This document shows positions 12,411-63,124 of a DNA stretch of 64,000 nucleotides, piece after piece. The stretch is from assembly GCA_037951105.1 (NCBI GenBank), contig JBAMJV010008056.1, positions 248,001-312,000 on the forward strand, in the 5' to 3' direction. The position numbers and the translations under genes are program-made. Positions within the stretch are counted from its first letter, which is position 1. Each line of letters opens with the position of its first letter. The stretch comes from Echinarachnius parma. Lineage: Eukaryota; Echinodermata; Echinoidea; Clypeasteroida; Echinarachniidae. The notes below the pieces were generated by a model. That model saw nothing but the letters and a program-made list of their open reading frames with translations, was not told the origin of the DNA and made no database searches.

Positions 12411-15067
12411 TTGTTTGTTTGTTTGTTTTTATTTCCGAATTAAAAATACAACAAAAGTCATAACATTCATCATAAAACAATATACAAAGATGTTAACAAT
12501 ATTCAAATTACAGAGTCATAAAAATATAAATAGTATGTTGCATATTATAAGAAAATTATATCGGGAGGATAGCCCGTTTCAGAACCATCATCACGATGGT
12601 TCTGTTCTTCCACGGGGTCCTATTAAAATGATGGTATAAATATATAAACATATAGAGTTTAAAAAATCACACATTCTGTTATCAATTACATTACCCTACC
12701 CCCTACCCCCCCCCCCCCCCCCCCATCCTTAAGTCACTCTGAGTCCCCCATCCCATACTCCCAACCCAACCTCCCGAGCCCCATTTATTACTAGCGGGTC
12801 ATACAAATTCTGCATAATTCCATAATTGCACATAATTATACACATATACATAATTGCACATTATACAAATATAAATATATTGAATAATTACAAGGTTATT
12901 TGGCTCACTATCTGCTAAGCTACTATAATTATGTAATCGTTTTAATTTCTTTATTGAATGAAATTAAGGAATTCAGATTACAGGTATTCGCAGGTAGGTT
13001 ATTATACAGTGTGCTACCACGATAAAAGAAAGTACGTCTACAATTCTCTGTGTTTGGTTTTGGGAGAGACAATTTATCCTTATGTCGTAATCCATATCTA
13101 GTTACTCTAAAAGTAAACTTTTCTAATAAATACACAGGTGCCATGCTATGTAAAATCTTAAACATTAACAAATGAATATGTCTAGTTTGACGAATCTGCA
13201 ATGTCTTCCAATTAAGAATATCATGTATTTCATGAACAGATCTATGTTCTAATAAATGTATCTTTAAAATTATTCTTCCTGCCCTATTTTGTATTTTTTG
13301 TGGGACATCCAATTGTGTTTTAGTAGCAGAAGACCAAACAACATCCCCATAATCGAAATGAGGGATAATTACAGCATTATATAACATTGTTAGGCATGAC
13401 TCATTGATATATTTACTTAATCTTCCTAGGAAGCTTATCATCTTACTAATCTTTTTACATAAATAATCAATGTGTACAGTCCATTTCAATTGTGAATCAA
13501 TAAATACTCCCAAGTATTTCAAATGTTGGACTTGTTCAATCTTTTTATCGTATATATGCAAATTCAATGTACTGTGCTTATGTAACATGCAGTTAGTTCC
13601 TATTAACATACATACTGTTTTCGTACAATTTATCTTTAATTTATTACGATCCATCCATACTTGTAAATTCTGTAATTCAACATTTAATACATTTTCAATA
13701 ATTTGTGGGTTTTTATTTGAATAGTATAACACCGTATCATCTGCGTATAAATGCACTGAACAATTATGAAAGCAATTTGGCATGTCATTAATAAAAATGA
13801 GAAATAGAATTGGTCCCAGTATAGAGCCTTGTGGTACGCCATGTGACACAGGTAGTTCGGTTGACATTGTATTATTAATTGACGTTGTTATACGCCTATC
13901 ATTCAAATAGCTATATAACCATTCATAAGATTTTCCTTTCAATCCAGTACAAGCAAAAAGCTTGGCTAAAATAATATCATGATTGACCAAGTCAAAAGCC
14001 TTTTGTAGGTCAACCGCAACTACCCCTGTATACATACCATTGTCAAGAGACATAAGCCATTCATCCGTAACTTGTATTAAGGTTGTACTTGTTGAATGCT
14101 TCGATCTAAATCCAGATTGGTGTTTAGTCAAAGTATTATTGTCTGTTAAAAAGCGTACAAGTTGACGTTGAATGACCCTTTCTAATAATTTTGAAACCGC
14201 AGGTAATAATGATTTTGGTCTATAGTTATCTGGATTGGCTTTGTCGCCTTTTTTAAAAATCGGTATTATCTTCGCAATCTTCCACCTTTTTGGGACTACA
14301 CCTTGACTAATTGATTTATTTATAATACATATTATACTTTTAACAATATCAATTCCACATAATTTCAAAATAAATGAGATTTTACCATCAATACCAAAAG
14401 ACTTTTTACTTTTCAATGAAAATATTTCTTTTAAAACCTCAGCATGTGAAACACAAGACAACTCCAAAACATTTCCTTTGTGATTAACATCATAATTAAC
14501 ATCAACAGCATCGTTCACAACATTGCACTTCTCCGCGACGTTTGCAAAATGATTATTAAATTCATTGACCAATTGTTCACTATTGCTAACACCAATGCTA
14601 GTTGATGTCTGAGGTAGCAAGGACTTAAGAACTTCCCAAGATTTTGATCTAGCTTGATAATCGCGTATTTTTTCAGTATAATATTGCTTTTTTGTCTTTT
14701 TAATTGTGTACGTTACTTTATTACGCAACTTTTTATAATCTTTCCAATCGTCATCGCTGTTTGTATGTTTAGCTCTTTTTTTAGTTTTGTCGCGCTCTTT
14801 CATCAAATTAAATATTGACTCATTAATCCATGGAGAGTGCATTTTCCGTACCCTCTTAGTTCTTATTGGCATATATTTATTGAGTACTTCTAGTACAAGC
14901 TGTTCCCATTTTGTGATCGCTTCATTTATATCACAACAATCTTCCACTTCCGACCATGTCTGAGACCTCATGTCTGCCCTGAATGCATTTTCATCAATAC
15001 CCTTAGATTTTCTAAAAGAAATCAATTTAACGTGGTTCATTGTATCATTTACATGCCCTACTTTCAA
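12411..15067 (-). mobile_element. 5'-truncated non-LTR retrotransposon (CR1/L2/jockey group)
   Basis: The element runs on the - strand from the end of its reverse transcriptase frame to a 3' tail of (AAAC)n, seen as TTGTTTGTTTGTTTG at 12411-12425. The 3' untranslated part includes a C19 run (12706-12724, as read on +) and a hairpin of 10-bp arms (CAGAACCATC / GATGGTTCTG, 12580-12604), a feature typical of LINE 3' ends recognised by their own reverse transcriptase. The apurinic endonuclease region that precedes the reverse transcriptase in this group is missing, so it is 5'-truncated or disrupted. Confidence 0.8.
12929..15067 (-). CDS. LINE reverse transcriptase (endonuclease missing)
   Basis: An uninterrupted frame of 712 residues. 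It begins at the linker that normally follows the endonuclease (SPWINESIFNLMKERD at about 78-93) and runs through the polymerase: KRWKIAKIIPIFKKGD (270-285), NYRPKSLLP (281-289), AVDLQKAFDLVNHD (351-364, catalytic D353), SHGVPQGSILG (408-418) and YADDT (441-445, catalytic D443 and D444). Thumb and C-terminal parts follow (KYLGVFID, HFDYGDVVWSS, IQNRAGRIIL). The catalytic aspartates are intact and no stop or frameshift is seen, so the copy is fairly young, but without an endonuclease it is probably unable to move by itself. K for the usual I in YRPxSLLP is a minor oddity. The annotated start is simply the first Met after the upstream stop. Confidence 0.88.
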   Translation of the reverse strand: MKVGHVNDTMNHVKLISFRKSKGIDENAFRADMRSQTWSEVEDCCDINEAITKWEQLVLEVLNKYMPIRTKRVRKMHSPWINESIFNLMKERDKTKKRAKHTNSDDDWKDYKKLRNKVTYTIKKTKKQYYTEKIRDYQARSKSWEVLKSLLPQTSTSIGVSNSEQLVNEFNNHFANVAEKCNVVNDAVDVNYDVNHKGNVLELSCVSHAEVLKEIFSLKSKKSFGIDGKISFILKLCGIDIVKSIICIINKSISQGVVPKRWKIAKIIPIFKKGDKANPDNYRPKSLLPAVSKLLERVIQRQLVRFLTDNNTLTKHQSGFRSKHSTSTTLIQVTDEWLMSLDNGMYTGVVAVDLQKAFDLVNHDIILAKLFACTGLKGKSYEWLYSYLNDRRITTSINNTMSTELPVSHGVPQGSILGPILFLIFINDMPNCFHNCSVHLYADDTVLYYSNKNPQIIENVLNVELQNLQVWMDRNKLKINCTKTVCMLIGTNCMLHKHSTLNLHIYDKKIEQVQHLKYLGVFIDSQLKWTVHIDYLCKKISKMISFLGRLSKYINESCLTMLYNAVIIPHFDYGDVVWSSATKTQLDVPQKIQNRAGRIILKIHLLEHRSVHEIHDILNWKTLQIRQTRHIHLLMFKILHSMAPVYLLEKFTFRVTRYGLRHKDKLSLPKPNTENCRRTFFYRGSTLYNNLPANTCNLNSLISFNKEIKTIT

Positions 15068-15629
15068 GGATACAACCAGAATCTAAGAGTAGAGTTTGTT
15101 CTTTTGTTTTATTTTTGTTTCCAAATTTGTTAACAGAACGCCTTTTCTCAATAATAAGTTAAACTTCGGCATTCACAAAGTAAAGTGCGTTGACTTTGAC
15201 CTGCGCGTATATGGAGTTTTGATTAGTAAACTATAAACGCATGGTTTATTAATTAAAATGTTTTGCACGATTTATTGTCGTTACATCATAAAGCCAGTTT
15301 GTAAAGAATAAGAATTTATATTTCTTTTCCTTACTGAATAATGGTATTTGTTGAAAAAATATATTTATCGCATATAGACGTTGACTTTTTAGAGTTCAGA
15401 AGTCAAACGCGCTTCGAGTCAAAACGCGCGATTTTGTGTTGCGGAAGCAAAAAACATGCATCCTTAAAGTCGAAATTGCGATACCTTTCGCTGTTTTAAC
15501 AAAATGGACACAACCATATTCTGAATCTACGGAATTTTCTATTTCGTTTAAACCTTGTTTCCCAAAATGTATATGAAATTTACACCAAAAAAAATCTATA
15601 CTATATGTTCCTCATAAACGGGCTATCTA
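15068..15629. other. AT-rich interval between LINE and 3.7-kb element
   Basis: No gene. The last 100 bases (about 15525-15595) contain GGAATTTTCT and TTGTTTCCCAAAATGTATATG, which recur in the same orientation just right of the second 3.7-kb element (25855-25910) and inverted near 5700. ACGCGC-rich words lie at about 15405-15430. Confidence 0.4.
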
Positions 15630-15679
15630 CCCAGGTAGCAAGCCAACGTTGGACCAACGTCGGAAACTTGCAAACTCGT

Positions 15680-16968
15680 TGGAACTCGTTGGACGTTGGA
15701 CAATCTCGTTGGATCAACGTTGGACCAACATCGGTAACTCGCAGTGAAAAAGAAGTTGGACAATCTCGTTGGACCAACGTTGGACCAACATCGGTAACTC
15801 GCAGTGAAATGTACGTTGGACAATCTCGTTGGACCAACGTTGGATCAACATCGTTAACTCGCAGTGAAATAGACGTTGGACAATTTTGTTGGACTAACGT
15901 TGGATCAACATCGGTAACTCGCAGTGAAAAAGACATTGGACAATCTCGTTGGACCAACGTTGGACCAACATCGGTAACTCGCAGTGAAAAAGACGTTGGA
16001 CAATCTTGTTGGACCAACATTGGACCAACATCGGTAACTCGCAGTGAAATGGACGTTGGACAATCTTGTTGGACCAATGTTGGATCAACATCGGTAACTC
16101 GCAGTGAAAAAGACGTTGGACAATCTCGTTGGACCAACGTTGGACCAACATCGGTAACTCGCAGTGAAAAAGACGTTGGACAATCTCGTTGGACCAACAT
16201 CGGTAACTCGCAGTGAAATGGATGTTGGACAATCTTGTTGGACCAACGTTGGACCAACATCGGTAACTCGCAGTGAAAAAGACGTCGGACAATCTCGTTG
16301 GACCAACGTTGGACCAACATCGGTAACTCGCACTGAAATGGACGTTGGACAATCTCGTTGGACCAACGTTGCACCAACATCGGTAACTTGCAGTGAAATA
16401 GTCGTTGGACAATCTCGTTGGACCAACGTTGGATCAACATCGGTAACTCGCAGTGAAAAAGACGTTGGACAATCTCGTTGGACCAACGTTGGACCAACAT
16501 CAGTAACTCGCAGTGAAATGGACGTTGGACAATCTTGTTGGACCAATGTTGGATCAACATCGGTAACTCGCAGTGAAAAAGACGTTGGACAATCTCGTTG
16601 GACCAACGTTGGACCAACATAGGTAACTCGCAGTGAAGAAGACGTTGGACAATCTCGTTGGACCAACGTTGGACCAACATCGGTAACTCGCAGTGAAATG
16701 GACGTTGGACAATCTCGTTGGACCAACGGTGGACCAACATCGGTAACTCGCAGTGAAATTGACGTTGGACAATCTCGTTGGAGCAACGCTGGACCAACAT
16801 CGGTAACTCGCAGTGAAAAAGACGTTGGACAATCTTGTTGGACCAACGTTGGATCAACATCGGTACCTCGCAGTGAAAAAGACGTTGGACAATCTCGTTG
16901 GACCAACGTTGGATCAACATCGGTAATTCGCAGTGAAAAAGACGTTGGACAATCTCGTTAGACCAACA
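15680..16968. repeat. 60-bp satellite array (about 21 units), copy 1
   Basis: Unit: GTTGGACCAACATCGGTAAC, then TCGCAGTGAAAAAGACGTTG, then GACAATCTCGTTGGACCAAC. The units stay in register for more than 1.2 kb apart from one shortened unit of about 41 bp near 16180-16220. Because 60 is a multiple of three, long open frames appear in several frames on both strands (up to 466 codons on -). These are products of the repeat, not genes. Each unit contains the palindrome CCAACGTTGG. Confidence 0.9.
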
Positions 16969-17985
16969 GTAATGAGTGGACTCAAGTAGAATTACAATCA
17001 TAAATAGAAGTGCGCCATCCCCGGTGAATTACCATATAGGATCGATATCGGGTGTCAAGAGACCATGTATGAGTTGGGCCATCGATCTACAAGCAGTTAA
17101 TAAAGTAAGCTTTCAACTATACTCGTGTGCTTGTATTATATTACAACATGGTGTCTGAAGTGAAAGTGACTGTATGTCTGATTCGATTCGCCATGACCTG
17201 TGTTGTAGAAATGCTAATTTGAATCCATTTTGGGAGGCGAGCTTCACGGTTGATGTGTGACCGGATATACCATCCAGAAAACGCTTTATTGAGAACTGTA
17301 CTGTTCGTTATCAACGGTGCATAGCTAGTAGGAAGAAAGAGCTCCAGAAGAGGCAGAAGCGATACTATGACCAGGGTGCCAAGTCGCTGCCGGTGTTGAA
17401 GTCTGGAGAACGTGTGTACTACCAAGTGGGAAAAGAATGGAAACCTGGCGTAGTGACAACTCAAGATTCAACGCCCCGCTCGTACCACATCCAGAGTGAG
17501 AAAGGTGGGCGGTATCGCCGGAACAGACATCATCTAAAGAAGCGTCGCGCACCTGAAGGTAACATCCATGTTCCAGTAAACGAGGAAACGGAGGTCCCAG
17601 AAGCGTGCTGGAGTGAGGTGAAGCCGCCCTCGCAAGAACGTGACAGGCGCTACCCACTTCGACGTCTACTCTCAGACCACCGGATAGATTAGATTTGTGA
17701 TAGAGATGAATACCATTTAGGGCAGAATAATCCCTTGGTATCATCTAGGCGTTGGGTAGTCCACCCTGGCACTAGCACGTTAAACCATTTTGCATAAGGT
17801 AAATGTCGGTCTTACAATAGGGGATGACAACCGTACGAAAGGGGCAGAATAATCCCCTGGTTCCATCTTCTGGGTGTCGGGTAGTCTACCCTGACACTCA
17901 AGTTTGTAATTTACCAGTATTTATTATTGTTATGCCAGAGTTACACATGGCATTTCGCCTACTTGTATTATATTACAACACCATG
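16969..17985 (+). mobile_element. Internally deleted Ty3/gypsy LTR retrotransposon inside copy 1
   Basis: The satellite is interrupted at about 16969 and resumes at about 17986. At 17148 an LTR-like end (TTGTATTATATTACAACA) is followed by TGGTGTCTGAAG, which resembles a tRNA primer binding site. The same LTR end recurs at 17963-17980. Between them only the end of the integrase frame survives, followed by a duplicated GGGCAGAATAATCCC block (about 17719 and 17842). LTR 5' limits are not clear. Gag, protease, reverse transcriptase and most of integrase are gone. Confidence 0.6.
17261..17692 (+). pseudogene. Ty3/gypsy integrase C-terminal fragment, copy 1
   Basis: An open frame of about 143 codons after an in-frame TGA at 17258. 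It carries the basic C-terminal tail of gypsy-type polyproteins: KRQKRYYDQGAKSLPVLKSG, then GVVTTQDSTPRSYHI and RYRRNRHHLKKR. This tail normally follows the DDE integrase core and binds DNA; the core is absent. It sits between the primer-binding-like site and the 3' LTR end. The same frame is intact in copy 2. It might still be translated if transcribed, but I see no start or splice signal that requires it. Confidence 0.7.
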
Positions 17986-18725
17986 CGATGGATCAACATT
18001 GGTAACTCAAAGTGAAATGGAGGTTGGACAATCTCGTTAGAGCAACGTTGGATCGACATCGGTAACCCACAGTGAAACGTTCGTTATTCCAACGAGAATC
18101 CAACATTTCACATCTGTTGTTCACTACATGTAGCTGTTATGTTAGAAAAGGTAATTTTTTTACTCGTAGCACAGGTGGTCAAAACCCCCTTGCATAATAA
18201 AAGGATTTAAAATTAGCTGCTGAAAGCAGGATGTATGCCATCGTTGGATCAACGTTGGTTCAACGTTGGATGAACGTTGGTTATTATTCATGAATATTCA
18301 TGAGTGGTTATCATTGACTGCAAAAAGCATTAATAATCATGTTATTTGATTGTTCAGAATGAATCCAATGTTATTATTTACTCATTATTTGAAATATATG
18401 TAAGTTATTTATCTACAAAAACATTCTAAAGGTTTGTTTCCATGATGTATTTGTGTAAATTCTTAAAACTTTATCCAAACATTCAACTTTATCGAAATAC
18501 CAACCATCAAACAAATATTAACACAGAAGCTAGGTTATATAAAGCTGAGTGGATGATGTAGATGTAGTGAGTGTAGGAATAGGAATAGGACTATATGGAT
18601 AGGGATAGGAATAGGACTAGGAATAGGGTTAGGGTAAGGTTAGTCTTAGGTAAAGGGAAAGCTAGGATAGGATGTTCTAGATATCACCAATAGGCGTGTC
18701 ATATGAATATTAATTAAATTTTTTT
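17986..18725. other. Interior AT-rich segment of the 3.7-kb element, copy 1
   Basis: Contains one and a half degraded satellite units (17986-18080), a short CAACGTTGG cluster (18240-18275), and a GGAATAGGAATAGG/AGGGTTAGGG minisatellite at 18572-18640. No gene. Confidence 0.55.
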
Positions 18726-19335
18726 AGTACGGTGAGACGTTGGTCCAATGTTGGACCAACGTTGGACCAACGTTGGATCAACGTTGGACCAACGTTGGAG
18801 AAATGTTGGTGAATTACGCTGGACCAACGTTGGATGCTTGTTGGAGACATGTTGGAGACATATTGGATGCTTGTTGGACACATGTTGCTTTGACGTTGGA
18901 TCAACGTTTGCGTACGCCCAATCAACGCTGCTCCAACAAAATACCAACCTTGGATTAACGTTGGAAAAGCGTTGGTCCAATGTTGGCTGCTTGTTGGATG
19001 CATGTTGGAGACATATTGGATGCTTGTTGGACACATGTTGCTTTGACGTTGGATCAACGTTTGCGTACGCCCAATCAACGCTGCTCCAACAAAATACCAA
19101 CCTTGGATTAACGTTGGAAAAGCGTTGGTCCAACGTTGACAAATAACAACTTTTCAACGATGGACCAACGTTGATCCAACGTTGGCATTTCGTTTTCGGC
19201 AACGTTGGAGCAACGTTGATTGGGCGTACGCAACCATCGTTGGTCCAACGTTGCCGGACAACGTTGGACCAACGTTGCCGAAAAAATTGGACAACGTTGG
19301 TCCAACGTTGGAACAACGTTGGCTTGCTACCTGGG
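18726..19335. repeat. Right subterminal CCAACGTTGG array, copy 1
   Basis: Repeated TTGGACCAACGTTGGA-type units, including a tandem pair of a 153-bp block (about 18829-18981 and 18982-19135) marked by TTTGCGTACGCCCAATCAAC. The array leads into the right terminal inverted repeat. Subterminal arrays of this kind are often transposase-binding sites; here that is inference. Confidence 0.7.
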
Positions 19336-19555
19336 TATATACAGCTTATACGCGATATGCGCATTGCCTGAAAATAGCTGCTTTAATACTATGATTCAAT
19401 GTAACAATTATACATTGGCTAAACAGGATGACAACCATGAAAACAATGTGACTTTTAAGGAGCAGAATCTACTCTTTCGATTAATATTTGTTTTGTCAAT
19501 GTTCCAATTTGACGTATTTAATTATATTATGGTAATGTAAACGGTTCCATGACAT

Positions 19556-21764: not shown

Positions 21765-22093
21765 ACAAGCATTTAGTGAATCGATTTGTCACGGGATATA
21801 AAAGATACGTACGTTTGCTTGTGTAATTGTTTTTAGCAGGAAATATACACGCAATTTTAGAAAAGTTCCAATATATTTTCGTCAGATTTAATAACATATA
21901 ATTGTTAAGCGATTTCCAAAAAAATATGAATATAAAATTATTATCACTTTTGAATAAAGGAAATGCGTGAAAAATCAGGTGTAACGCAACGATAAACTTT
22001 TTCGCATTTCAGAGTTGAGCGCGCGTTAAGTAAAATCGCGCAATATTTCTGTTTCATGAGCCAATGACATTAGGTCATTCAATTTCGAATATA
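21765..22093. other. Spacer between Mutator-like element and second 3.7-kb copy
   Basis: AT-rich with no gene. GAGCGCGCGTTAAGTAAAATCGCGC at about 22016-22040 loosely resembles the ACGCGC-rich segment near 15405. Confidence 0.35.
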
Positions 22094-22143
22094 CCCAGGT
22101 AGCAAGCCAACGTTGGACCAACGTCGGAAACTTGCAAACTCGT

Positions 22144-23432
22144 TGGAACTCGTTGGACGTTGGACAATCTCGTTGGATCAACGTTGGACCAACATCGGTA
22201 ACTCGCAGTGAAAAAGAAGTTGGACAATCTCGTTGGACCAACGTTGGACCAACATCGGTAACTCGCAGTGAAATGTACGTTGGACAATCTCGTTGGACCA
22301 ACGTTGGATCAACATCGTTAACTCGCAGTGAAATAGACGTTGGACAATTTTGTTGGACTAACGTTGGATCAACATCGGTAACTCGCAGTGAAAAAGACAT
22401 TGGACAATCTCGTTGGACCAACGTTGGACCAACATCGGTAACTCGCAGTGAAAAAGACGTTGGACAATCTTGTTGGACCAACATTGGACCAACATCGGTA
22501 ACTCGCAGTGAAATGGACGTTGGACAATCTTGTTGGACCAATGTTGGATCAACATCGGTAACTCGCAGTGAAAAAGACGTTGGACAATCTCGTTGGACCA
22601 ACGTTGGACCAACATCGGTAACTCGCAGTGAAAAAGACGTTGGACAATCTCGTTGGACCAACATCGGTAACTCGCAGTGAAATGGATGTTGGACAATCTT
22701 GTTGGACCAACGTTGGACCAACATCGGTAACTCGCAGTGAAAAAGACGTCGGACAATCTCGTTGGACCAACGTTGGACCAACATCGGTAACTCGCACTGA
22801 AATGGACGTTGGACAATCTCGTTGGACCAACGTTGCACCAACATCGGTAACTTGCAGTGAAATAGTCGTTGGACAATCTCGTTGGACCAACGTTGGATCA
22901 ACATCGGTAACTCGCAGTGAAAAAGACGTTGGACAATCTCGTTGGACCAACGTTGGACCAACATCAGTAACTCGCAGTGAAATGGACGTTGGACAATCTT
23001 GTTGGACCAATGTTGGATCAACATCGGTAACTCGCAGTGAAAAAGACGTTGGACAATCTCGTTGGACCAACGTTGGACCAACATAGGTAACTCGCAGTGA
23101 AGAAGACGTTGGACAATCTCGTTGGACCAACGTTGGACCAACATCGGTAACTCGCAGTGAAATGGACGTTGGACAATCTCGTTGGACCAACGGTGGACCA
23201 ACATCGGTAACTCGCAGTGAAATTGACGTTGGACAATCTCGTTGGAGCAACGCTGGACCAACATCGGTAACTCGCAGTGAAAAAGACGTTGGACAATCTT
23301 GTTGGACCAACGTTGGATCAACATCGGTACCTCGCAGTGAAAAAGACGTTGGACAATCTCGTTGGACCAACGTTGGATCAACATCGGTAATTCGCAGTGA
23401 AAAAGACGTTGGACAATCTCGTTAGACCAACA
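22144..23432. repeat. 60-bp satellite array, copy 2
   Basis: Unit-by-unit the same as the copy 1 array, including the shortened unit (near 22650-22680) and individual variant bases. The two arrays therefore descend from one master rather than expanding independently. Long open frames on both strands are period artefacts. Confidence 0.9.
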
Positions 23433-24456
23433 GTAATGAGTGGACTCAAGTAGAATTACAATCATAAATAGAAGTGCGCCATCCCCGGTGAATTACCATA
23501 TAGGATCGATATCGGGTGTCAAGAGACCATGTATGAGTTGGGCCATCGATCTACAAGCAGTTAATAAAGTAAGCTTTCAACTATACTCGTGTGCCTACTT
23601 GTATTATATTACAACATGGTGTCTGAAGTGAAAGTGACTGTATGTCTGATTCGATTCGCCATGACCTGTACGGTTGTAGAAATGCTAATTTGAATCCATT
23701 TTGGGAGGCGAGCTTCACGGTTGATGTGTGACCGGATATACCATCCAGAAAACGCTTTATTGAGAACTGTACTGTTCGTTATCAACGGTGCATAGCTAGT
23801 AGGAAGAAAGAGCTCCAGAAGAGGCAGAAGCGATACTATGACCAGGGTGCCAAGTCGCTGCCGGTGTTGAAGTCTGGAGAACGTGTGTACTACCAAGTGG
23901 GAAAAGAATGGAAACCTGGCGTAGTGACAACTCAAGATTCAACGCCCCGCTCGTACCACATCCAGAGTGAGAAAGGTGGGCGGTATCGCCGGAACAGACA
24001 TCATCTAAAGAAGCGTCGCGCACCTGAAGGTAACATCCATGTTCCAGTAAACGAGGAAACGGAGGTCCCAGAAGCGTGCTGGAGTGAGGTGAAGCCGCCC
24101 TCGCAAGAACGTGACAGGCGCTACCCACTTCGACGTCTACTCTCAGACCACCGGATAGATTAGATTTGTGATAGAGATGAATACCATTTAGGGCAGAATA
24201 ATCCCTTGGTATCATCTAGGCGTTGGGTAGTCCACCCTGGCACTAGCACGTTAAACCATTTTGCATAAGGTAAATGTCGGTCTTACAATAGGGGATGACA
24301 ACCGTACGAAAGGGGCAGAATAATCCCCTGGTTCCATCTTCTGGGTGTCGGGTAGTCTACCCTGACACTCAAGTTTGTAATTTACCAGTATTTATTATTG
24401 TTATGCCAGAGTTACACATGGCATTTCGCCTACTTGTATTATATTACAACACCATG
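23433..24456 (+). mobile_element. Internally deleted Ty3/gypsy retrotransposon inside copy 2
   Basis: Same remnant as in copy 1: LTR-like end at 23616 followed by TGGTGTCTGAAG, integrase tail, duplicated GGGCAGAATAATCCC block, LTR-like end at 24451. Its shared position inside both satellite arrays shows that it was captured before the two copies separated. Confidence 0.6.
23732..24163 (+). pseudogene. Ty3/gypsy integrase C-terminal fragment, copy 2
   Basis: The open frame is the same as at 17261-17692, with the same basic tail (RYYDQGAKSLP, STPRSYHIQSE, RYRRNRHHLKK). The catalytic DDE core is absent, so it is a relic carried as cargo of the DNA element. Confidence 0.7.
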
Positions 24457-25194
24457 CGATGGATCAACATCGGTAACTCAAAGTGAAATGGAGGTTGGAC
24501 AATCTCGTTAGAGCAACGTTGGATCGACATCGGTAACCCACAGTGAAACGTTCGTTATTCCAACGAGAATCCAACATTTCACATCTGTTGTTCACTACAT
24601 GTAGCTGTTATGTTAGAAAAGGTAATTTTTTTACTCGTAGCACAGGTGGTCAAAACCCCCTTGCATAATAAAAGGATTTAAAATTAGCTGCTGAAAGCAG
24701 GATGTATGCCATCGTTGGATCAACGTTGGTTCAACGTTGGATGAACGTTGGTTATTATTCATGAATATTCATGAGTGGTTATCATTGACTGCAAAAAGCA
24801 TTAATAATCATGTTATTTGATTGTTCAGAATGAATCCAATGTTATTATTTACTCATTATTTGAAATATATGTAAGTTATTTATCTACAAAAACATTCTAA
24901 AGGTTTGTTTCCATGATGTATTTGTGTAAATTCTTAAAACTTTATCCAAACATTCAACTTTATCGAAATACCAACCATCAAACAAATATTAACACAGAAG
25001 CTAGGTTATATAAAGCTGAGTGGATGATGTAGATGTAGTGAGTGTAGGAATAGGAATAGGACTATGGATAGGGATAGGAATAGGACTAGGAATAGGGTTA
25101 GGGTTAGGTTAGTCTTAGGTAAAGGGAAAGCTAGGATAGGATGTTCTAGATATCACCAATAGGCGTGTCATATGAATATTAATTAAATTTTTTT
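24457..25194. other. Interior AT-rich segment of the 3.7-kb element, copy 2
   Basis: Matches 17986-18725 except for single-base differences (ATCGG for ATTGG near 24470; GGGTTAGGGTTAGG here against GGGTTAGGGTAAGG). No gene. Confidence 0.55.
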
Positions 25195-25804
25195 AGTACG
25201 GTGAGACGTTGGTCCAATGTTGGACCAACGTTGGACCAACGTTGGATCAACGTTGGACCAACGTTGGAGAAATGTTGGTGAATTACGCTGGACCAACGTT
25301 GGATGCTTGTTGGAGACATGTTGGAGACATATTGGATGCTTGTTGGACACATGTTGCTTTGACGTTGGATCAACGTTTGCGTACGCCCAATCAACGCTGC
25401 TCCAACAAAATACCAACCTTGGATTAACGTTGGAAAAGCGTTGGTCCAATGTTGGCTGCTTGTTGGATGCATGTTGGAGACATATTGGATGCTTGTTGGA
25501 CACATGTTGCTTTGACGTTGGATCAACGTTTGCGTACGCCCAATCAACGCTGCTCCAACAAAATACCAACCTTGGATTAACGTTGGAAAAGCGTTGGTCC
25601 AACGTTGACAAATAACAACTTTTCAACGATGGACCAACGTTGATCCAACGTTGGCATTTCGTTTTCGGCAACGTTGGAGCAACGTTGATTGGGCGTACGC
25701 AACCATCGTTGGTCCAACGTTGCCGGACAACGTTGGACCAACGTTGCCGAAAAAATTGGACAACGTTGGTCCAACGTTGGACCAACGTTGGCTTGCTACC
25801 TGGG
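25195..25804. repeat. Right subterminal CCAACGTTGG array, copy 2
   Basis: Same layout as 18726-19335, including the 153-bp tandem pair with TTTGCGTACGCCCAATCAAC. One substitution near the end (GGACCAACG instead of GGAACAACG) was noted. Confidence 0.7.
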
Positions 25805-25806
25805 TA

Positions 25807-27431
25807 ACTACTTTGGGCTATTCAAAAAAAATGTAAACAACCAGATTCGGAATCTATGGAATTTTCTCTTTCGATTAAGCCTTGTTTCCCAAAATGTATA
25901 TGAAATTTTCACAAACCTCGAGTTTCTGACATAAGGCACCGGACTATACCAGGGCCAGGGACATTTTTGGTACAGTAATTTATTTCCAATTAGTCATCAA
26001 CCAAAACAAAATAGACTCATTCATCATTATGTTTTACCATGTAACAATATTCTTCATTCAAGACGTCCATCCAACATAAATGGGACAAAGAAAGAGCCAT
26101 GCGTATTCCATGTTATAAATACACAAATGAATCCGACGGAGTTTAAAAGTACACAGCATGCACCCATATCGCGTACTTCATACACACACACAGTGGCGTA
26201 GCGTGGTCGGACTGATTGGGGGGGGGGGGGCACGAACAGATTGGATGGATCTTCAAAGAGGGACAAATAAGCTTAGCTTCCAGTCTCTACAAACAAGTAA
26301 ACAAGTAATTATTGGGGGAGCACACCTTTTGTATTTCTTTGTTTTTTCAAAAAATGTCCCCTTATGTATTCTATTGTTTTTTTCGAAATTATTGGGGGGG
26401 GGGGGGGGGGCACGTGCCACCCGTGCCCCCCCCCCCCCCCCCCCCCCCCGTAGCTACGCCACTGCACACACACACACACACAGTACGAAAAAGGGCCATA
26501 CACACAAGTTTTGCACATTATTACAACAAAGCTCGGCATGCAATGATGCAAAGCGCGCTCAAATCAAACGCACGTGCTGCATGCATTTCATGTATATATT
26601 GTGCATGGATGGAGCGACAACCGTACACACGGGAATCGCACATGTATCGCAACCGTATCAGTAGTGCTCATTATCACACACCCGGCCTTGGAAACTGCAA
26701 TTCATTTATCTTAATAAACTTTTCAGAATGTGTATCTTAATCAGTTTCCAACCGTTTATATAAGGCTTCAATATTTGTTGGATGTTTTGGTTTCATGACT
26801 TTAAGTAGCATCGCCAGAGATTGTAAGTATGTTTGCAAAGTTTCTTTAATAAATTACCATTGTTGAAGTTACTATCCCTTTCCTTTTCATTATGTTTAAG
26901 GCATTATAATGTTATTGATCATGTTTATTTTCTCACCAACAATCACAAGTACACACAAACAAAAAGCGACCAATATATCTAATAATTGCTGCTTGCTGGC
27001 CCTTGAAAAGAATGTAATACTTTATTGTATGTAACGTAGTTCTACCATGATCATGATGATCAGCAGTATTTCCTACCAAAGTTCTCTTAATCACTTTTGT
27101 ACTTGTCCTAATTCGTTATTCTCACATTTCCCCTCTTAATTTACAATAACTATGTTTTGCTCATCACATGCTCATTCACCATCAACCATCCATCAACCAA
27201 CACAAAACAAAATAAAGGAAGAATCAGATATTAATTTACATGTAGAAGACATCGGTTTTCATTGTTATTTTATTTAGTGTTTCGGATGTACTAAGTTTAC
27301 GTGTGTGCCGTTATAATACACAGACAATTAACTAGTGTCACTCTACCCTGACCTACAATAGCCCACCTGCCTGGAAATCCTGTCCCTTTTATACTTTACC
27401 CGGCTTCAAGATTTTACATGAAATCTTTTAA
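25807..27431. other. Non-coding interval with poly-G repeats and a dispersed repeat
   Basis: 25840-25920 matches 15525-15595. 26189-26464 holds a pair of facing tags, AGTGGCGTAGCGTGGTCGG at the left and CGTAGCTACGCCACTG at the right, enclosing G13, G17 and C24 runs, followed by a short (CA)n. 26640-26950 is a second copy of the repeat at 5150-5430. The proline- and glycine-rich open frames here are homopolymer artefacts. Confidence 0.45.
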
Positions 27432-48394: not shown

Positions 48395-49925
48395 TTGAAT
48401 AACTTTCCAACCCTGCATCTGTTTGTAACCAAACTTGATTGTTAGATGCCCTACACTGCCCTCCATCATATGCTGGGTCAAATGTCACATAAGTAGGTCA
48501 AAGGTCAAATGGGGTCAAATGTGAAAGTTTACCTGTGAGAGCCTATTAGGGTTGATAACTTTCCAACCCTCCATCTGTTTGTAACCAAACTTGATTGGTA
48601 CGTGCCCTATATTAGCATCCATGATATTATGAGGTCAAAGGTCACGTAAGTAGGTCAAAGGTCAAATGAGGTCCAATGGGATATTTTACTTGCAAGAGTC
48701 TATTAGGGTTGATTACTTTCCAACCCTGCATATGTTTGTAACCAAACTTGATTGGTAGATGCTCTACATTGGCCTCCATGATATTCTGGGTTCGAATGTC
48801 ACATAAGTAGGTCAAAGGTCAAATGGGGTCAAATATAAAAGTTTACCTATAAGAGTCTATTAGGGTTGATAACTTTCTAACCCTGCATCTGTTTGTAACC
48901 AAACTTGATTGGTAGATACATTGGCCTCTATGATATTCTGGGGTAAAATGTGACATAAGTTGGTGAAAGGTCAAATGAGGTCCAATGTGACATTTTACCT
49001 GCACTATTACGGTTGATAACTTTCCAACCCTGCATCTGTTTGTAACCAAACTTGATTGGCAGATGCCCTACATTAGCCTCCAAGATATTCTGGGGTCAAA
49101 GATTACATAAGTAGGTCAAAGGTCAAATGGGGTCAAATGTTAAAGTTAACCTGTAAGAGTATATTTGGGTTGATAACTTTCCAACCCTACATCTGTTTGT
49201 AACCAAACTTGATTGGTACGTGTCCTTTTTTAGACTCCATTATATTCTGGGGTCAAAGGTCACATAAGTAGGTCAAAGGTCAAATTGGGTCAAATGTGAA
49301 AGTTTACCTGTAAGAGTCTATTAGGGTTGATAACTTTCTAACCCTGCATCTATTTGTAACCAAACTTGATTGGCAGATGCCCTACATTAGCCTCCATGAT
49401 ATTCTGGGGTCAAAGATTACATAAGTAGGTCAAAGGTCAAATGGGGTCAAATGTTAAAGTTAACCTGTAAGAGTATATTTGGGTTGATAACTTTCCAACC
49501 CTACATCTGTTTGTAACCAAACTTGATTGGTACGTGTCCTTTTTTAGACTCCATTATATTCTGGGGTCAAAGGTCACATAAGTAGGTCAAAGGTCAAATT
49601 GGGTCAAATGTGAAAGTTTACCTGTAAGAGTCTATTAGGGTTGATAACTTTCCTACCCTGCATCTATTTGTAACCAAACTTGATTGGTAGGTGCCCTATA
49701 TATGAATCCATGATATTCTGGGGTCAAAGGTCACGTAAGTAAGTCAAAGGTAAAATGAGGTCCAATGTGAAATTTTACCTGCAATAGTCTATTAGGGTTG
49801 ATAACTTTCCAACCCTCCATCTGTTTGTAACCGAACTTGATTGGCAGATGCCCTACATTAGCCTCCATGATAGTATTGGGTCAAAGGTCACAAAAGTAGG
49901 TCAAAGGTCAAATGGGGTCAAATGT
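48395..49925 (+). repeat. Satellite array of about 155-bp units with DR1 motifs (10 units)
   Basis: Each unit has GTTGATAACTTTCCAACCC, CATCTGTTTGTAACCAAAC, TTGATTGGTAGATGCCCTAC, GATATTCTGGGGTCAAAGGT, CACATAAGTAGGTCAAAGGT and CAAATGGGGTCAAATG. Eight of ten units keep a perfect AGGTCAAAGGTCA; two are degenerate (near 48960 and 49738). Two neighbouring blocks (around 49080-49310 and 49385-49620) are almost identical, suggesting recent unequal exchange. It interrupts the old LINE. Confidence 0.75.
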
Positions 49926-54721: not shown

Positions 54722-54832
54722 TTAAGCATTTATTGTATTTTTCTAAAAAGTCAAAATTTCCCTCCGGCCGGTGGACTTATGAATACAATATCTTTAAATC
54801 AAATTGTACAACTATGTGAGCATTTGATTTGA

Positions 54833-55490
54833 AATGATTCTCATGTTTTATGTTTTATTCAATGAACTTTCAAATGGAATTAAAACCAACCAATTTAGTG
54901 CCAAGGGGAATTTCGGGAATTACCAGAGGCTCATGTATACCTTTAATGGAATGATACGTTTTTTTAGAACCATTATAATTTTAAGACAAGATAACGTGAC
55001 GTCACTTCTTCAGTTATACCGGCAACATTACCTTTGGTGTACCCCAGGGATCGATTTTGGGTCATATTTTATTGTTGATTGATGAAAATAATTTTAAATG
55101 TTCTTCTCATATATTGCAGTTTAAAATGTTTGCTGATGATACTAGTGCTTTTGGTAAACAAAGGTCTTTATATTTTTTTACAAATATAATTAATTTTGAA
55201 AAAGGTTCATAATGTTTTTGTACGCAATTAACTTGCCTTAATACTCGGAAAACTGAGGTAATAGAAAGAGTAATTTAAAATTATGGGTGTCACTTATGAG
55301 GAAGATTTTAAATGGAAGAATCATGTTAATAGTATTTTGTGTACAATCTCTAGAAATATTGGTATTATGAATAGAATGAAGGACTTTCTCCCAGAACATG
55401 TATTTATATTGTTTTATAATTCATTGATACTCCCGTATTTGAGTTATTGTAATATAAATTGGGGTTCATGCATCAAATATTTGTAAGATA
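54833..55490 (+). pseudogene. LINE reverse transcriptase relic
   Basis: From 55036 the frame reads GVPQGSILG and, 32 codons from the start, KMFADDTSAFG, then breaks at a TAA near 55210. A second frame from 55283 (67 codons) continues with TYEEDFKWKNHVNSIL and ILPYLSYCNINWGS, the thumb region. The sequence before 55036 is frameshifted. It differs from the two other LINEs in the window and is clearly inactive. Confidence 0.65.
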
Positions 55491-58349: not shown

Positions 58350-59146
58350 GTGCAAGATGGGTTTACTTCTTCGCGCATTCATCTTCGTATACCTGGTCAC
58401 GTGTACTCTCCATGGGATCTCTGCGTATGGGAACTCATCGGTCGAATCACCTCTAGGAACAAACGCGATTATAACATTCTTTCATCAGTTGACGCATCAA
58501 GATGTTGACTATAGCCTTTACGTATTTATCATAGGCAATAATCAACCATTTTACTATAATGGAAAAATCGATCCACGGGGTCTGAAACAAGGTCAATATG
58601 ACCGCTTTGCTATTCAGGTCCAAAAGACAGAACAAAATATTACAATTATTGTTCAGATTGTCAATGTACAAGTAGTTGACGAAGCTCGTTATGTAGTAAG
58701 CAAAGCGGAAGACTTTAAGTCACCTAATATGATACAAAGCTCATATGAAACATTCCTTAAGGTAACTTACCCGCCAGGGAGGGCAGAATGTAAAGTTCAG
58801 ACACCGATTCCTCCCGGCGGTCTCTGGCTAACGGTCCATTGTAATGCTACACTTGGAAATGACGACCACGGATACATCTGTTGTCTTCAAAACAACATTC
58901 AGATGCCTTACCATCAACCAGTAAGACATGATGGCTTACAACTAACTGCTGCTTTTTGGATAGATCCGAAACTTGAGGTGAGGTGCTGTTCCATCGATGA
59001 TGTCTCTACCATTGACAAGGACGCCTGTGATCATTTTGTGTACCCTGGTCAAGAAGACAGCGTTACATCAGTCAGTTATATGCCTACCACAAACATTTTG
59101 CCACCAACCATCTCTCCTGACACCCCATTTAGTCCAACACAACCAG
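58350..59146 (+). CDS. Exon 1: signal peptide and Ig-like ectodomain
   Basis: Acceptor CTTCCATAG at 58341-58349, then seven bases and ATG at 58357. Residues 1-24 are a clear signal peptide (hydrophobic LLLRAFIFVYLVTCTL core). Residues 26-130 resemble a V-type Ig domain: RFAIQVQK, NITIIVQIVNVQVVDEARYV match strands D to F, but the two disulfide cysteines are replaced. Residues 138-228 form a second, cysteine-rich domain (C145, C162, C175, C176, C210, C211, C224). N-glycosylation sites: N26, N94, N163. A Thr/Pro-rich stalk follows. The donor is CCAG|GTAAAG after 59146 (phase 1). Reading through the donor gives a 284-residue secreted form ending at 59211. Confidence 0.75.
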
Positions 59147-62100
59147 GTAAAGTGAATAAGTCCAGCGCCTCAAAAGAGCTCGCACTGAAGTCCATGTCAA
59201 CGTTAATGTAAACATGTAATCAGTGGCGTTTCTACTAACACAATATAACAAGCATAACATAAACCTTTTTTGGGAAAACAACATAGAAACAAAACAGATT
59301 GCCTGCTCCCAATCAGTCTGACCATATAAGGTCACTGCAAATGGTCCGTCAATGACACATTACGAACAAAGAAGGCGATTTTGTTATGATTGGTATCTTT
59401 CTGAGTTATTTCGGAGATAATGCATTATAAGTGTCATTTCTTACACTATAAGAGTGACATACATCCTATTTATATTGTCATTAAAATACATAAATAATTA
59501 CATTTGATAATAACATCATGTGCATCATGTCGCATACAAAGGGACCACCAATATACGTGTGCACTTGTTATATTTACTTTAACATGTATATCAATCCTCC
59601 CTCGGATTAATGTTCTTCAAGTTAAAAAGGGCCGTGTCCTAAAGCACCCCGGTTTTTATCTTCAAACCAAGGGGGGCTTTGGACGGAATGGCATTACCAA
59701 TTCTTAGGTTCATAGAGTTGTTAGTGAAACTAAATATTTTGAAATTCTCACAAAATATTGATAATATATTAAGTAAGCTCATATAATGGCATGTAGGTAT
59801 TAGGCATTAACAAATTCCCACAAAAGATGAAGCCAATAATAGTGATTAAGAATTGAAGATTGTTCTGAAAATGTAACTTTTTGAAATCGTGTCAAACAAA
59901 AAAACTATAGTATAGACCATTTCATTGAAATGCTCGTTTCATGGATAGATTTGTAAGTCTAATTTTGTGATAAGAAACGTTTATAAACAAATATAATGTT
60001 TATAACCAATAATGTTCCAATCACCCTGATAACATTTGAGACAACCTGCTAGGTGTTAATACAATATTTTGCATCTGCATTAATGTTTTACCTATAAATA
60101 CTATTTGTAGATAATTATTCTAATAGTTTTGGATAAACAGGTTGTACATAAAAGGTCTAATATTATTTGTTAAACTTTTGTTTTCTTTTTCTTTCATTTT
60201 TTTTGTTGGGGGGGGGGGGGGGGGGGGGAGCAGTAAACACATTTCACTTAAGCTATTTCGAATTGTTTGGTAGGAATTGGTCACATTATAACAACTATAT
60301 TTCTTTGCCTCACATCTACAGATACGACAAATACAAAATGGACTGTGCTTAATACCTTGTTCGGTGTTTTCCTAGTAATCTTGATCGTCTTCGTCATAAT
60401 CTTCTGTAAACGTCGAGAGAAAGGTGTGACAATATTTTGTTCGTAACTGTTATATACTTGTTGAGTCAATCCAAACATTTGCAAACTGACCAGAAATATG
60501 TTTTAATAAACGATAACGAGCAAGTATATTGTTTCTACATGTCTCAAACCGAAAACCTCCACATTGTTATAGACCCGTGCTCTGAACATTAAGCTAGACG
60601 CTGTTATGATGGCGGCACGTCCACGATAAGTTTGAAATGTACAGTATACAAACCTGACACACACACAAAGGATCGGAAGCAATGTACATACGTACACAGG
60701 GATTAACCGATTAATTTTACTTAATCCAAAATAACAAGAAAACTGACCAGAATTATCTGTAAATAACGGCCGTTCTTATAACCCTTCTCAATGATCATCC
60801 TACATACAAACTTGTTAACCCTGACACAAGCCCGAACAAAAAATTAACTTATGGATGTGCAAAGGATCATCAAGGTGATACATTTTTTTCGACTAGCGTG
60901 AGCATTCAGGGTTACGGGGAAGGGCCAGCTTCGAAATAGCTTGAAGCGGGCTTGAAGCTTAGTGCTAATACCACCGTTCTAGCAATTCTGAGGCCTCGTG
61001 CTCAATGTATTTGCTTCTTGTCATCCATAATTATGACATGAGAAGAAAAGTTATAGAAAACTGTTATAATGGTTATGAAATGTCCATTTAAACTTAATTT
61101 CAAATCTTAGTTGTAAATACTCAAACGCATATTTTATTATACTATTAAATTACTGGACTTTATATTCTAGATGCCGTAGATGACGAGAAAGAAGAACTGA
61201 TTCAAGGTATGTGTTTCATTACCTAATAATGTCATATCGATCAAAATTGTGTTTCGATCGGCATGACATAACTTAAATCACTGAAATATAACTATATACA
61301 TAACTGTCAGGTATGAGGCACATATGTGTAGGTACATAATATCATAGTAAGTGGTTTGAATTGGTGATATCGGAAATGTAATAGCCACATTGCTCGCAAT
61401 CGTCTAATTCGGGATCACATCGTATTTGTGTCTGGTAATTATTAAACACACGCATAATAAAAAGTAAACAAACACACCACTTTATTTAAAATACTGACTT
61501 CAAGGTATTTTTGTTATAAAATGCTCCTGTAAGATTATTTCTAAATTTTAGATTTCTAGTTGTATAGTTTCTTTTATATATCACTAATAATGGAAATAAT
61601 CAATGTCTTTGAGACCACTATCATCTGTTTTGACTGACCACTGGAGGCCGCCATGTTGTCAACGGTGCCAAATGAAACGTCATCTGATCGTGCACGAACA
61701 TAATCGGGTTACGTAACCAATGTTGTCTGATGTTTGATGATATGTCGTTTTTTTTTGTTGCGCACACTTAAATGACGTTTCACCTACCGTTTAAAACATG
61801 GCAGCCTCCAGTGGTCAGTCAAAACAGACGAATTTCCATTATTAGTGATATCCAAGTTGAAATATACGAATAGAAGTGACAGGTATCATGCAATTATCAG
61901 TAACATTAAGCAAACATGCCAGTTTTGTAGTTATCGAGTTGAAGTAATTTTTCGATCCTTTATTTAGAAACAGAATCAGATCCATTGTTTGATGAATTGC
62001 TTCCATCGTGGGCAAGCAGCACGTACCAACGCGTTCGAATCAGGGGAAAGAAAGTGACGAAATTCCCACCAATCACGATACAGCGAAGATTCCAGATGAC

Positions 62101-63124
62101 CAAGGATAAACACCCAGACAAGGTTGCACTGGCCGTCAAGAACTCGATGCAAGACGAGACATGGAGTGAGTGGACATATCAGGAATACTGGGATGACTGC
62201 AGGAAATTTGCCAAGGCACTCATGAAGGTATTTGGAAATAATAATTTAATCAAGACAAATAAAATAAGGGCGGACATGAGGAAGAAAAAGAACGAACGAA
62301 CAGTGAAGTCAAGTGTGAATTATATAACACGACCGCACTCATTCACAATTAACACTTTTCAGCAATCATTTGCTGCAGTACAAATATAGTCAAATATATG
62401 TTAAGAACAAATGTGTCAAGATGTTTATTATGTTTTTTTATGAGCAAGTAATTAGGGTTTCTCTGGAATTCGAACACGAGAGCTCCGGAATATTAGACTA
62501 CTGTGATAGTTTGTGCGTCCCTTAAACCCTTTCAGAATATATTCTTATCCTTCGGGTTTCTGTCGGGTGTATTATGTTGCTTGTCAGTTGAAAGAAGAGA
62601 AGGATATTCGGGTATAATACCTAAGCACCCCCTACTCGTCATCCGCCAGGATTGATGTGTCCGTATGCCCAAGCAGGTTCAAAGTGTTTAAATATGCTCA
62701 TTGTGATAAGCCCTAATCGAACGAATACGACATCAGTATCAAAGTTCATCAGTATTGGTAATTCATAAGATATCCATTTAAAACCTTTTCATCGCAATAC
62801 AAATATTTATATAAATATATCCAGCCTTCGTCAGCGTTGTGACTCGACTTGACCTTCGTGACATAACGAACGATTAATCACCGGGTCGTAGACATTCGGT
62901 AGCTTGTATCCCCCCCCCCCCCCCCCCTCCCGATTAAACAAATACTTAATAAACTTTAATAAATGTTCACGGAAATCTCTGAAATTCTAACAAAAACAAT
63001 TCTTACTTCAGTCAATAAAACATTTTATTTCCAAGCTTGGGATACAGAAACACCAAACAGTAGGGATCTGTGGACGTAACTCACCAGAATGGGCGCTGTC
63101 TTTCATGGGTTCCATAATGGCTGG
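58357..63124 (+). CDS. Ig-like transmembrane receptor fused to bubblegum-type acyl-CoA synthetase (5' part, five exons)
   Basis: Gene model: exons 58350-59146 (coding from 58357), 60322-60423, 61171-61206, 61968-62227 and 63036-63124, continuing beyond the window. Joined, they encode 425 residues: signal peptide (about 1-24), Ig-like ectodomain (about 25-230), Ser/Thr/Pro-rich stalk (231-270), one transmembrane helix (about 271-292) with a CKRREK stop-transfer signal, a short acidic linker, and the N-terminal part of an ACSBG-type long-chain fatty-acid-CoA ligase (from about 310). ACSBG enzymes activate long-chain fatty acids to acyl-CoA using ATP; here the enzyme would face the cytosol. Introns are phase 1, 1, 1, 0 and 2. 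The ATP/AMP-binding signature lies beyond the window. The alternative, two adjacent genes, would require an unseen polyadenylation and promoter between exons that match in phase. Fusion is my preferred reading. Confidence 0.72.
60322..60423 (+). CDS. Exon 2: transmembrane helix
   Basis: Acceptor CCTCACATCTACAG, donor AAAG|GTGTGA, 102 bases, phase 1 at both ends. With the last G of exon 1 it encodes D, TTNTKWTVLN, TLFGVFLVILIVFVIIF and CKRREK: a 20-residue hydrophobic helix followed by basic residues, which places the C-terminal side in the cytosol. The exon is too short and in the wrong frame to appear as a long open frame, but its hydrophobic pattern and phase match are convincing. Confidence 0.75.
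61171..61206 (+). CDS. Exon 3: 36-base acidic linker exon
   Basis: Acceptor TTTATATTCTAG, donor CAAG|GTATGT. Encodes D AVDDEKEELIQ. Phase 1 at both ends, so it can be included or skipped without changing the frame. It is the least certain exon because of its size, but both splice sites are good. Confidence 0.55.
61546..61868. repeat. Foldback MITE in intron 3 of the fusion gene
   Basis: Arms TCACTAATAATGGAAAT / ATTTCCATTATTAGTGAT and GACTGACCACTGGAGGC / GCCTCCAGTGGTCAGTC pair over more than 100 bases each. GAGGCCGCCATGTTGTC and TGAAACGTCAT echo the element at 7497-7920, so the two may be related. Ends are not resolved to a target duplication. Confidence 0.5.
61968..62227 (+). CDS. Exon 4: start of the acyl-CoA synthetase domain
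   Basis: Acceptor CCTTTATTTAG, donor ATGAAG|GTATTT. With the preceding G it encodes 87 residues, ETESDPLFDELLPSW and onwards. It contains the family's N-terminal landmarks: KFPPITIQRRF (usual form PPITV..LF), HPDKVALAVK, WSEWTYQEYWDDCRKFAKAL. These match the start of ACSBG (bubblegum) ligases, where this segment lies about 70-100 residues into the protein and leads to the adenylate-forming domain. The exon has no plausible initiator Met near its start, as expected for an internal exon. Confidence 0.8.
63036..63124 (+). CDS. Exon 5: acyl-CoA synthetase domain, continued
   Basis: Acceptor TTTTATTTCCAAG, donor CTGG|GTAAGT. Phase 0 in, phase 2 out. It encodes LGIQKHQTVGICGRNSPEWA, then LSFMGSIMAG. 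This is the conserved ACSBG segment (family pattern LG...VGIxGFNSPEW...GxIxAGG). R replaces the usual F in GRNSPEW. The next exon should supply the second Gly and the YTTN-type segment. Confidence 0.82.

Follow-up and report, generated by a model that had tools for sequence, protein, structure and literature searches.

Receptors with a pseudoenzyme as cytoplasmic domain are already known, the pseudokinase receptors being one example, and Ig-type receptors form expanded families such as KIR/LILR. Acyl-CoA synthetases can also be anchored in membranes: ACSL and FATP/SLC27 proteins are active enzymes without an Ig ectodomain, held by an N-terminal helix, which in FATP/SLC27 follows a short extracellular N-terminus. 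To our knowledge, no receptor carries an acyl-CoA-synthetase tail, and we know of no counterpart to a route from receptor to lipid via a disarmed tail of this kind. Among the top-ranked titles of the open-licence literature, none described Ig receptors whose tail is an acyl-CoA synthetase. As for the enzymes themselves, PMC2868784 states that they make acyl-AMP from ATP, that ATP binding at the P-loop of a bacterial enzyme opens the fatty-acid channel, and that ACSL6 has a predicted transmembrane segment at residues 21-42.

The window analysed here is a stretch of 64,000 nucleotides of Echinarachnius parma, positions 248001-312000 of contig C8044, and the genome searched was its own assembly (one genome, 1.2 Gb, 14,790 contigs). 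Five exons on the forward strand of the window (58357-59146, 60322-60423, 61171-61206, 61968-62227 and 63036-63124) join into a single open frame of 425 amino acids. Exon 1 starts at its own ATG, all internal borders are AG/GT, and the exon phases (0>1, 1>1, 1>1, 1>0 and 0>2) match at the junctions (1, 1, 1, 0). This looks like the 5' part of one gene, represented by its first five exons, which would encode a single-pass type I receptor. With a probability of about 0.76, we read it as one member of a multi-copy family of Ig receptors whose tail is a pseudoenzyme of acyl-CoA-synthetase origin. Such a protein would resemble the pseudokinase receptors in being a single-pass receptor with an enzyme-descended intracellular domain devoid of catalytic residues, but the fold of its tail would be that of an acyl-CoA synthetase. 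It is this fold that would be new, as we have not seen it described in a receptor tail.

By sequence, the encoded protein has a signal peptide, one transmembrane helix and a cytoplasmic tail (a hydrophobic N-terminus judged by eye, the transmembrane exon, and the basic KRREK). Exon 1 (58357-59146), as read from the frame join and the family alignment with domain borders placed by eye, would encode the signal peptide (about residues 1-22), a V-like Ig domain without the usual cysteine pair, a Cys-rich second domain and a Ser/Thr/Pro stalk. A membrane helix ahead of an acyl-CoA synthetase domain is shared with ACSL and FATP/SLC27, but the window gene differs from FATP/SLC27 by the 263-residue exon-1 product that precedes its transmembrane exon. 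Exon 2 (60322-60423; 102 nt, phase 1-1) encodes the helix (about 60345-60407), whose most hydrophobic 19-residue stretch averages 3.05 on the Kyte-Doolittle scale, followed by KRREK. Exon 3 (61171-61206; 36 nt, phase 1-1) is an acidic juxtamembrane micro-exon, DAVDDEKEELIQ. Exon 4 (61968-62227; phase 1>0), which has counterparts at 18 receptor-type loci, begins the acyl-CoA-synthetase-derived domain, and exon 5 (63036-63124; phase 0>2) continues it (GICGRNSPEWALSFMGSIMAG); together they match the AMP-binding family PF00501 at 1.5e-16 (score 60.6 bits; cut-off 29.9). The first-pass annotation had proposed this join, noting its good splice sites and phase agreement, as well as a single membrane helix and the beginning of an acyl-CoA-synthetase-type tail, and the rebuilt gene agrees with it on each of these points. 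Because C8044 ends at 312046, 46 bases beyond the window and before exon 7, the enzyme part of the window gene cannot be completed, and its later exons would lie past the contig end.

The juxtamembrane anatomy recurs elsewhere in the genome. A 102-nt phase 1-1 transmembrane exon followed by a phase 1-1 micro-exon of 27 or 36 nt was read in the window gene, in C3443, in C14722 and in copy 2 on C8044, and C11880 has a 114-nt transmembrane exon with a micro-exon of 27 nt, which makes five loci in total; outside the window the micro-exon is 27 nt long at each of them. Besides that of the window, the micro-exon peptides read DDEAEEMEQ, GDEFEPLMH, GNTDHELMQ and DEDAEPLMQ. An acidic dileucine-like pattern was recognised by eye in three of the five (window, 61171-61206; C14722; C11880), so the micro-exon would suggest control of trafficking through a signal of this type. 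At C12077, no transmembrane exon was found in the 2.2 kb upstream of the synthetase exon, where the contig ends.

We next consider the ectodomain. The window member had no Pfam match at E<=1, and is the sole exception among 18 aligned ectodomain members, the 17 others matching V-set (best 5.1e-7); the Ig-like character attributed to it in the first-pass annotation is thus backed through its family. Structural searches gave little: an AlphaFold model of exon 1 made without alignment was uninformative (mean pLDDT 37.4), the best E values of the ectodomain alone against the PDB were only 0.072 and 0.13, and the ectodomain profile retrieved titin and sodium-channel beta-4 at E 0.33-0.61. Within the second domain, six cysteines are invariant across all 18 aligned ectodomains, which also share a D-E-x-x-Y segment. 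The window exon-1 protein had at least 145 genome matches at E<=0.001 (145 of 356 candidates scored), and the ectodomain of C8044 copy 2, used as a query, at least 150 (150 of 342 scored). Judged by these matches, the Ig-like ectodomain exons are a large multi-copy family in this genome. A second Ig exon is present in C8044 copy 2 and many relatives, and absent from the window copy; in one relative it scored 0.0014 with Ig_3, under the cut-off of that family. In the protein database, where animal coverage is uncertain, the 18-member ectodomain alignment found nothing at E<=0.01 among 2090 candidates.

Not all of these heads are followed by a synthetase. Nine other ectodomain loci were scanned over about 9 kb downstream, and none showed a synthetase exon there, nor was a common transmembrane exon recognised; the tail therefore appears confined to a sub-family of the ectodomain genes, and the remaining copies may have tails of other kinds. 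The likeness to KIR/LILR lies in the large multigene family, the divergent Ig heads and the broken copies, whereas a sub-family with an enzyme-derived tail sets the present genes apart.

The receptor tail derives, by its sequence, from an acyl-CoA synthetase, probably of the bubblegum (ACSBG) type. PF00501 was matched above cut-off also by exons 4-8 of C3443, with which a PDB search retrieved adenylate-forming enzymes (best 2.4e-10). The exon 4-5 query gave 39 genome matches (all 43 candidates scored), two of them from C8044 copy 2; the 18 receptor-type exon-4 loci are counted leaving out one duplicated C8044 exon, two C7990 fragments and C814 (33% identity). Queried with exons 6-8 of C3443, the genome yielded 56 matches from 57 candidates, every one of which was scored. 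In ordinary acyl-CoA synthetases, exon 7 carries the ATP-binding signature. This exon was found and read at 18 receptor-type loci and at C814, an ordinary-looking copy retrieved by the exon 4, 7 and 8 queries. Twelve of the 18 are among the loci with an Ig-type exon upstream, and six (C12077, C795, C804, C10159, C9269 and C4397) count as receptor-type on similarity alone. Because the near-identical exons 7 of C795 and C9358, and of C5803 and C3076, may be haplotypes, 18 loci do not mean 18 genes.

TSGTTG is absent from every one of the 18 receptor-type copies, of which C14722 is an example (CCSITYPITLSGKLKGCMISHDN), whereas C814 retains YTSGTTGNPKG and reads CCALIYTSGTTGNPKGVMISHDN. In other respects the exon is preserved: it is alignable throughout with that of C814, with CC, Y, G and SHDN invariant in 18/18 receptor-type copies; the frame is open and the AG acceptor present in all of them, a GT donor follows in 17 (C3076 was read only to the exon edge), and length differences are whole codons. 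In the later exons of C3443, C14783 and C14722, the segments matching what we take to be the conserved YLPLSH and GVPR were, by eye, altered too. The window's own copy, whose contig ends before exon 7, would by the evidence of its relatives also have lost the motif.

C814 and the receptor tails, which may both belong to the ACSBG family, share the PF00501 fold, but no Ig-type exon was found on the C814 contig among the matches listed. C814 is a separate gene and a more distant one. In the protein database, the 425-residue join retrieved two AMP-binding proteins at E<=0.01 (P0001 and P0002) among 1798 candidates. Both align beyond chance only to window exons 4-5, and P0002 comes from a transcriptome collection. 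With P0001, which has the motif, as a genome query, 13 matches were obtained, and past query residue 151 only C814 was matched, at four places. The synthetase part alone found no protein at E<=0.001 among 10 candidates of the same database, again with uncertain animal coverage.

Loss of the motif was not accompanied by loss of constraint. Using NG86, dN/dS across the synthetase exons was 0.18 (window-C3443), 0.21 (window-C14722), 0.22 (window-C14783, 29 codons), 0.30 (C3443-C14722), 0.25 (C3443-C14783) and 0.30 (C14722-C14783), with individual exons reaching 0.49; for exon 7, all pairs of the 18 copies pooled gave 0.36, uncorrected for relatedness. Between window and C3443, 8 of the changes in the tail are synonymous and 6 nonsynonymous (p 0.003). 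From these values, the tail is under purifying selection even though the motif is absent: in the family, the AMP-binding fold is kept and the catalytic motif gone, the window copy being read in exons 4-5 only. For the same pair, the first 149 aligned codons of the ectodomain differ by 8 synonymous and 21 nonsynonymous changes (p 0.30, synonymous fraction 0.22), the C-terminal ectodomain being left out as it crosses the C3443 frameshift. In seven ectodomain pairs, of which three include the window, dN/dS was 0.26-0.55. The transmembrane exon of the window-C3443 pair, with 1 synonymous and 9 nonsynonymous changes, counts against our reading.

Could the family be a collection of decaying pseudogenes, left by an old fusion that lost the motif and is no longer made into protein? 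Several copies are indeed damaged. In C3443, the ectodomain has a frameshift and a stop, and exon 9 is, by eye, out of frame; copy 1 on C8044 is interrupted by stops in its ectodomain, its transmembrane exon and a duplicated exon 4, and its second Ig exon is split; in C8044 copy 2, the frame changes within exons 4 and 5; and exon 11 of C14722 hits a stop, past which similarity carries on in another frame (by eye). C14783, by contrast, is open in the parts that were read. Part of this damage could be assembly error. The motif missing from all receptor-type copies read would fit decay as well, but the open frames, splice borders and whole-codon length differences of the 18 exons 7, the dN/dS values of 0.18-0.36 and the five intact exons of the window make this explanation quite improbable. 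Three receptor-synthetase copies were located on C8044, at 23687, 165845 and 306357, nearly equally spaced, at intervals of about 142 kb and 141 kb; both of the left-hand copies are broken.

The same fused receptor might have kept an active acyl-CoA synthetase as its tail, ligand binding then steering fatty-acid activation. This was the proposal of the first-pass annotation, in which extracellular binding was coupled directly to fatty-acid activation. An AMP-binding fold that is retained and under purifying selection is what an active tail would show, and the window's own exon 7 lies off the contig, but TSGTTG is found in 0/18 receptor-type copies of this exon and is kept by C814 in the same genome. 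Catalysis by the family tails is therefore unlikely, and we regard an active tail as very unlikely. Since related genes are without the ATP-binding motif of the enzyme, the role of the tail is probably binding or signalling, not catalysis: the earlier proposal probably had the fusion right and the catalysis wrong.

The fusion itself is supported by linkage. The second-Ig-exon query gave 19 genome matches (all 68 candidates scored), corresponding to 13 loci at E<=1.5e-39, one extra row for copy 1 on C8044, and another five rows that were set aside as weak (5e-5 to 9e-4). At 12 of the 13 strong loci, synthetase exon 4 lies downstream on the same strand, at 2.4-12.0 kb, C6182 being the exception. 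Starting from the synthetase side, 15 of the 18 exon-4 loci are preceded within 15 kb, among the matches listed, by a same-strand exon of the second-Ig or ectodomain kind. The remaining three are C12077, whose contig ends 2.2 kb upstream of exon 4, C795, where exon 4 comes only 2.65 kb after the contig start, and C4397, for which the matches listed include no Ig exon although the contig is 134 kb long. Random placement would give such linkage at about 1e-4 per Ig locus, tandem copies not being independent.

If the exons belonged instead to two adjacent genes, one for a short Ig receptor that stops after exon 3 and one for an independent synthetase whose first exon is unseen, this would explain the C4397 locus and the nine ectodomain loci devoid of a nearby synthetase exon. 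Against this stand the same-strand linkage seen from both sides, the phase-matched transmembrane exons and micro-exons at five loci, and the start of exon 4, in which the first methionine is at residue 43 (window), 60 (C3443) or 58 (C8044 copy 1) and is absent from C14722. In the window, the in-frame stretch upstream of exon 4 reaches a stop and contains no ATG. An independent synthetase transcript would thus require a first exon that we did not see, and with the same layout recurring at many loci, and exon 4 lacking a usable early start codon, the two-gene explanation is highly improbable. Chance joining of unrelated exons was rejected, as the order, phases and near-constant lengths of the exons, including the transmembrane and micro-exon anatomy, and the linkage of Ig and synthetase exons recur at other loci.

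How a receptor with a pseudoenzyme tail might work can be pictured as follows. Outside the cell, it would display a V-like Ig domain and a Cys-rich one behind the signal peptide, with a further Ig exon in many relatives; one helix would lead through the short acidic micro-exon to the intracellular domain, most likely a pseudoenzyme that kept the fold and lost the ATP-binding loop. Binding of a ligand by the diverse head may cluster or move the tails, which would act without acyl adenylation, either as a docking site or as a module responsive to fatty acid or acyl-CoA, and could possibly pair with an active enzyme. More tentatively, and rather less probably than not, a diversified Ig receptor family may have recruited the synthetase fold as an intracellular signalling module with its ATP site disarmed, recognition being read out via fatty-acid or acyl-CoA binding or via control of an active enzyme. 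If head and tail are one protein, a lipid-metabolic enzyme fold would have become the tail of a receptor and stayed under selection after losing its ATP site, and Ig-type recognition would be connected with lipid metabolism in a way that can be tested. With an ordinary copy and many disarmed ones in one genome, a direct comparison is possible.

The rest of the window contains repeats and relics of mobile elements. A direct duplication (about 6.47 kb) relates 15500-19382 to 22026-25821, and contains 60-bp arrays (15692-16967 and 22156-23431), 153-bp repeats (at 18820 and 25289) and identical 143-residue open reading frames (at 17261 and 23732), which we take to resemble the tail of a retroelement integrase. 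On the reverse strand, 12929-15082 is an open frame of 717 residues, presumably akin to a non-LTR retrotransposon reverse transcriptase. A 157-bp tandem array of about 9.8 copies (85% matches) occupies 48399-49925. Finally, reverse-transcriptase-like stretches in different frames at 54828-55486, on the forward strand, are probably the relic of an old element.
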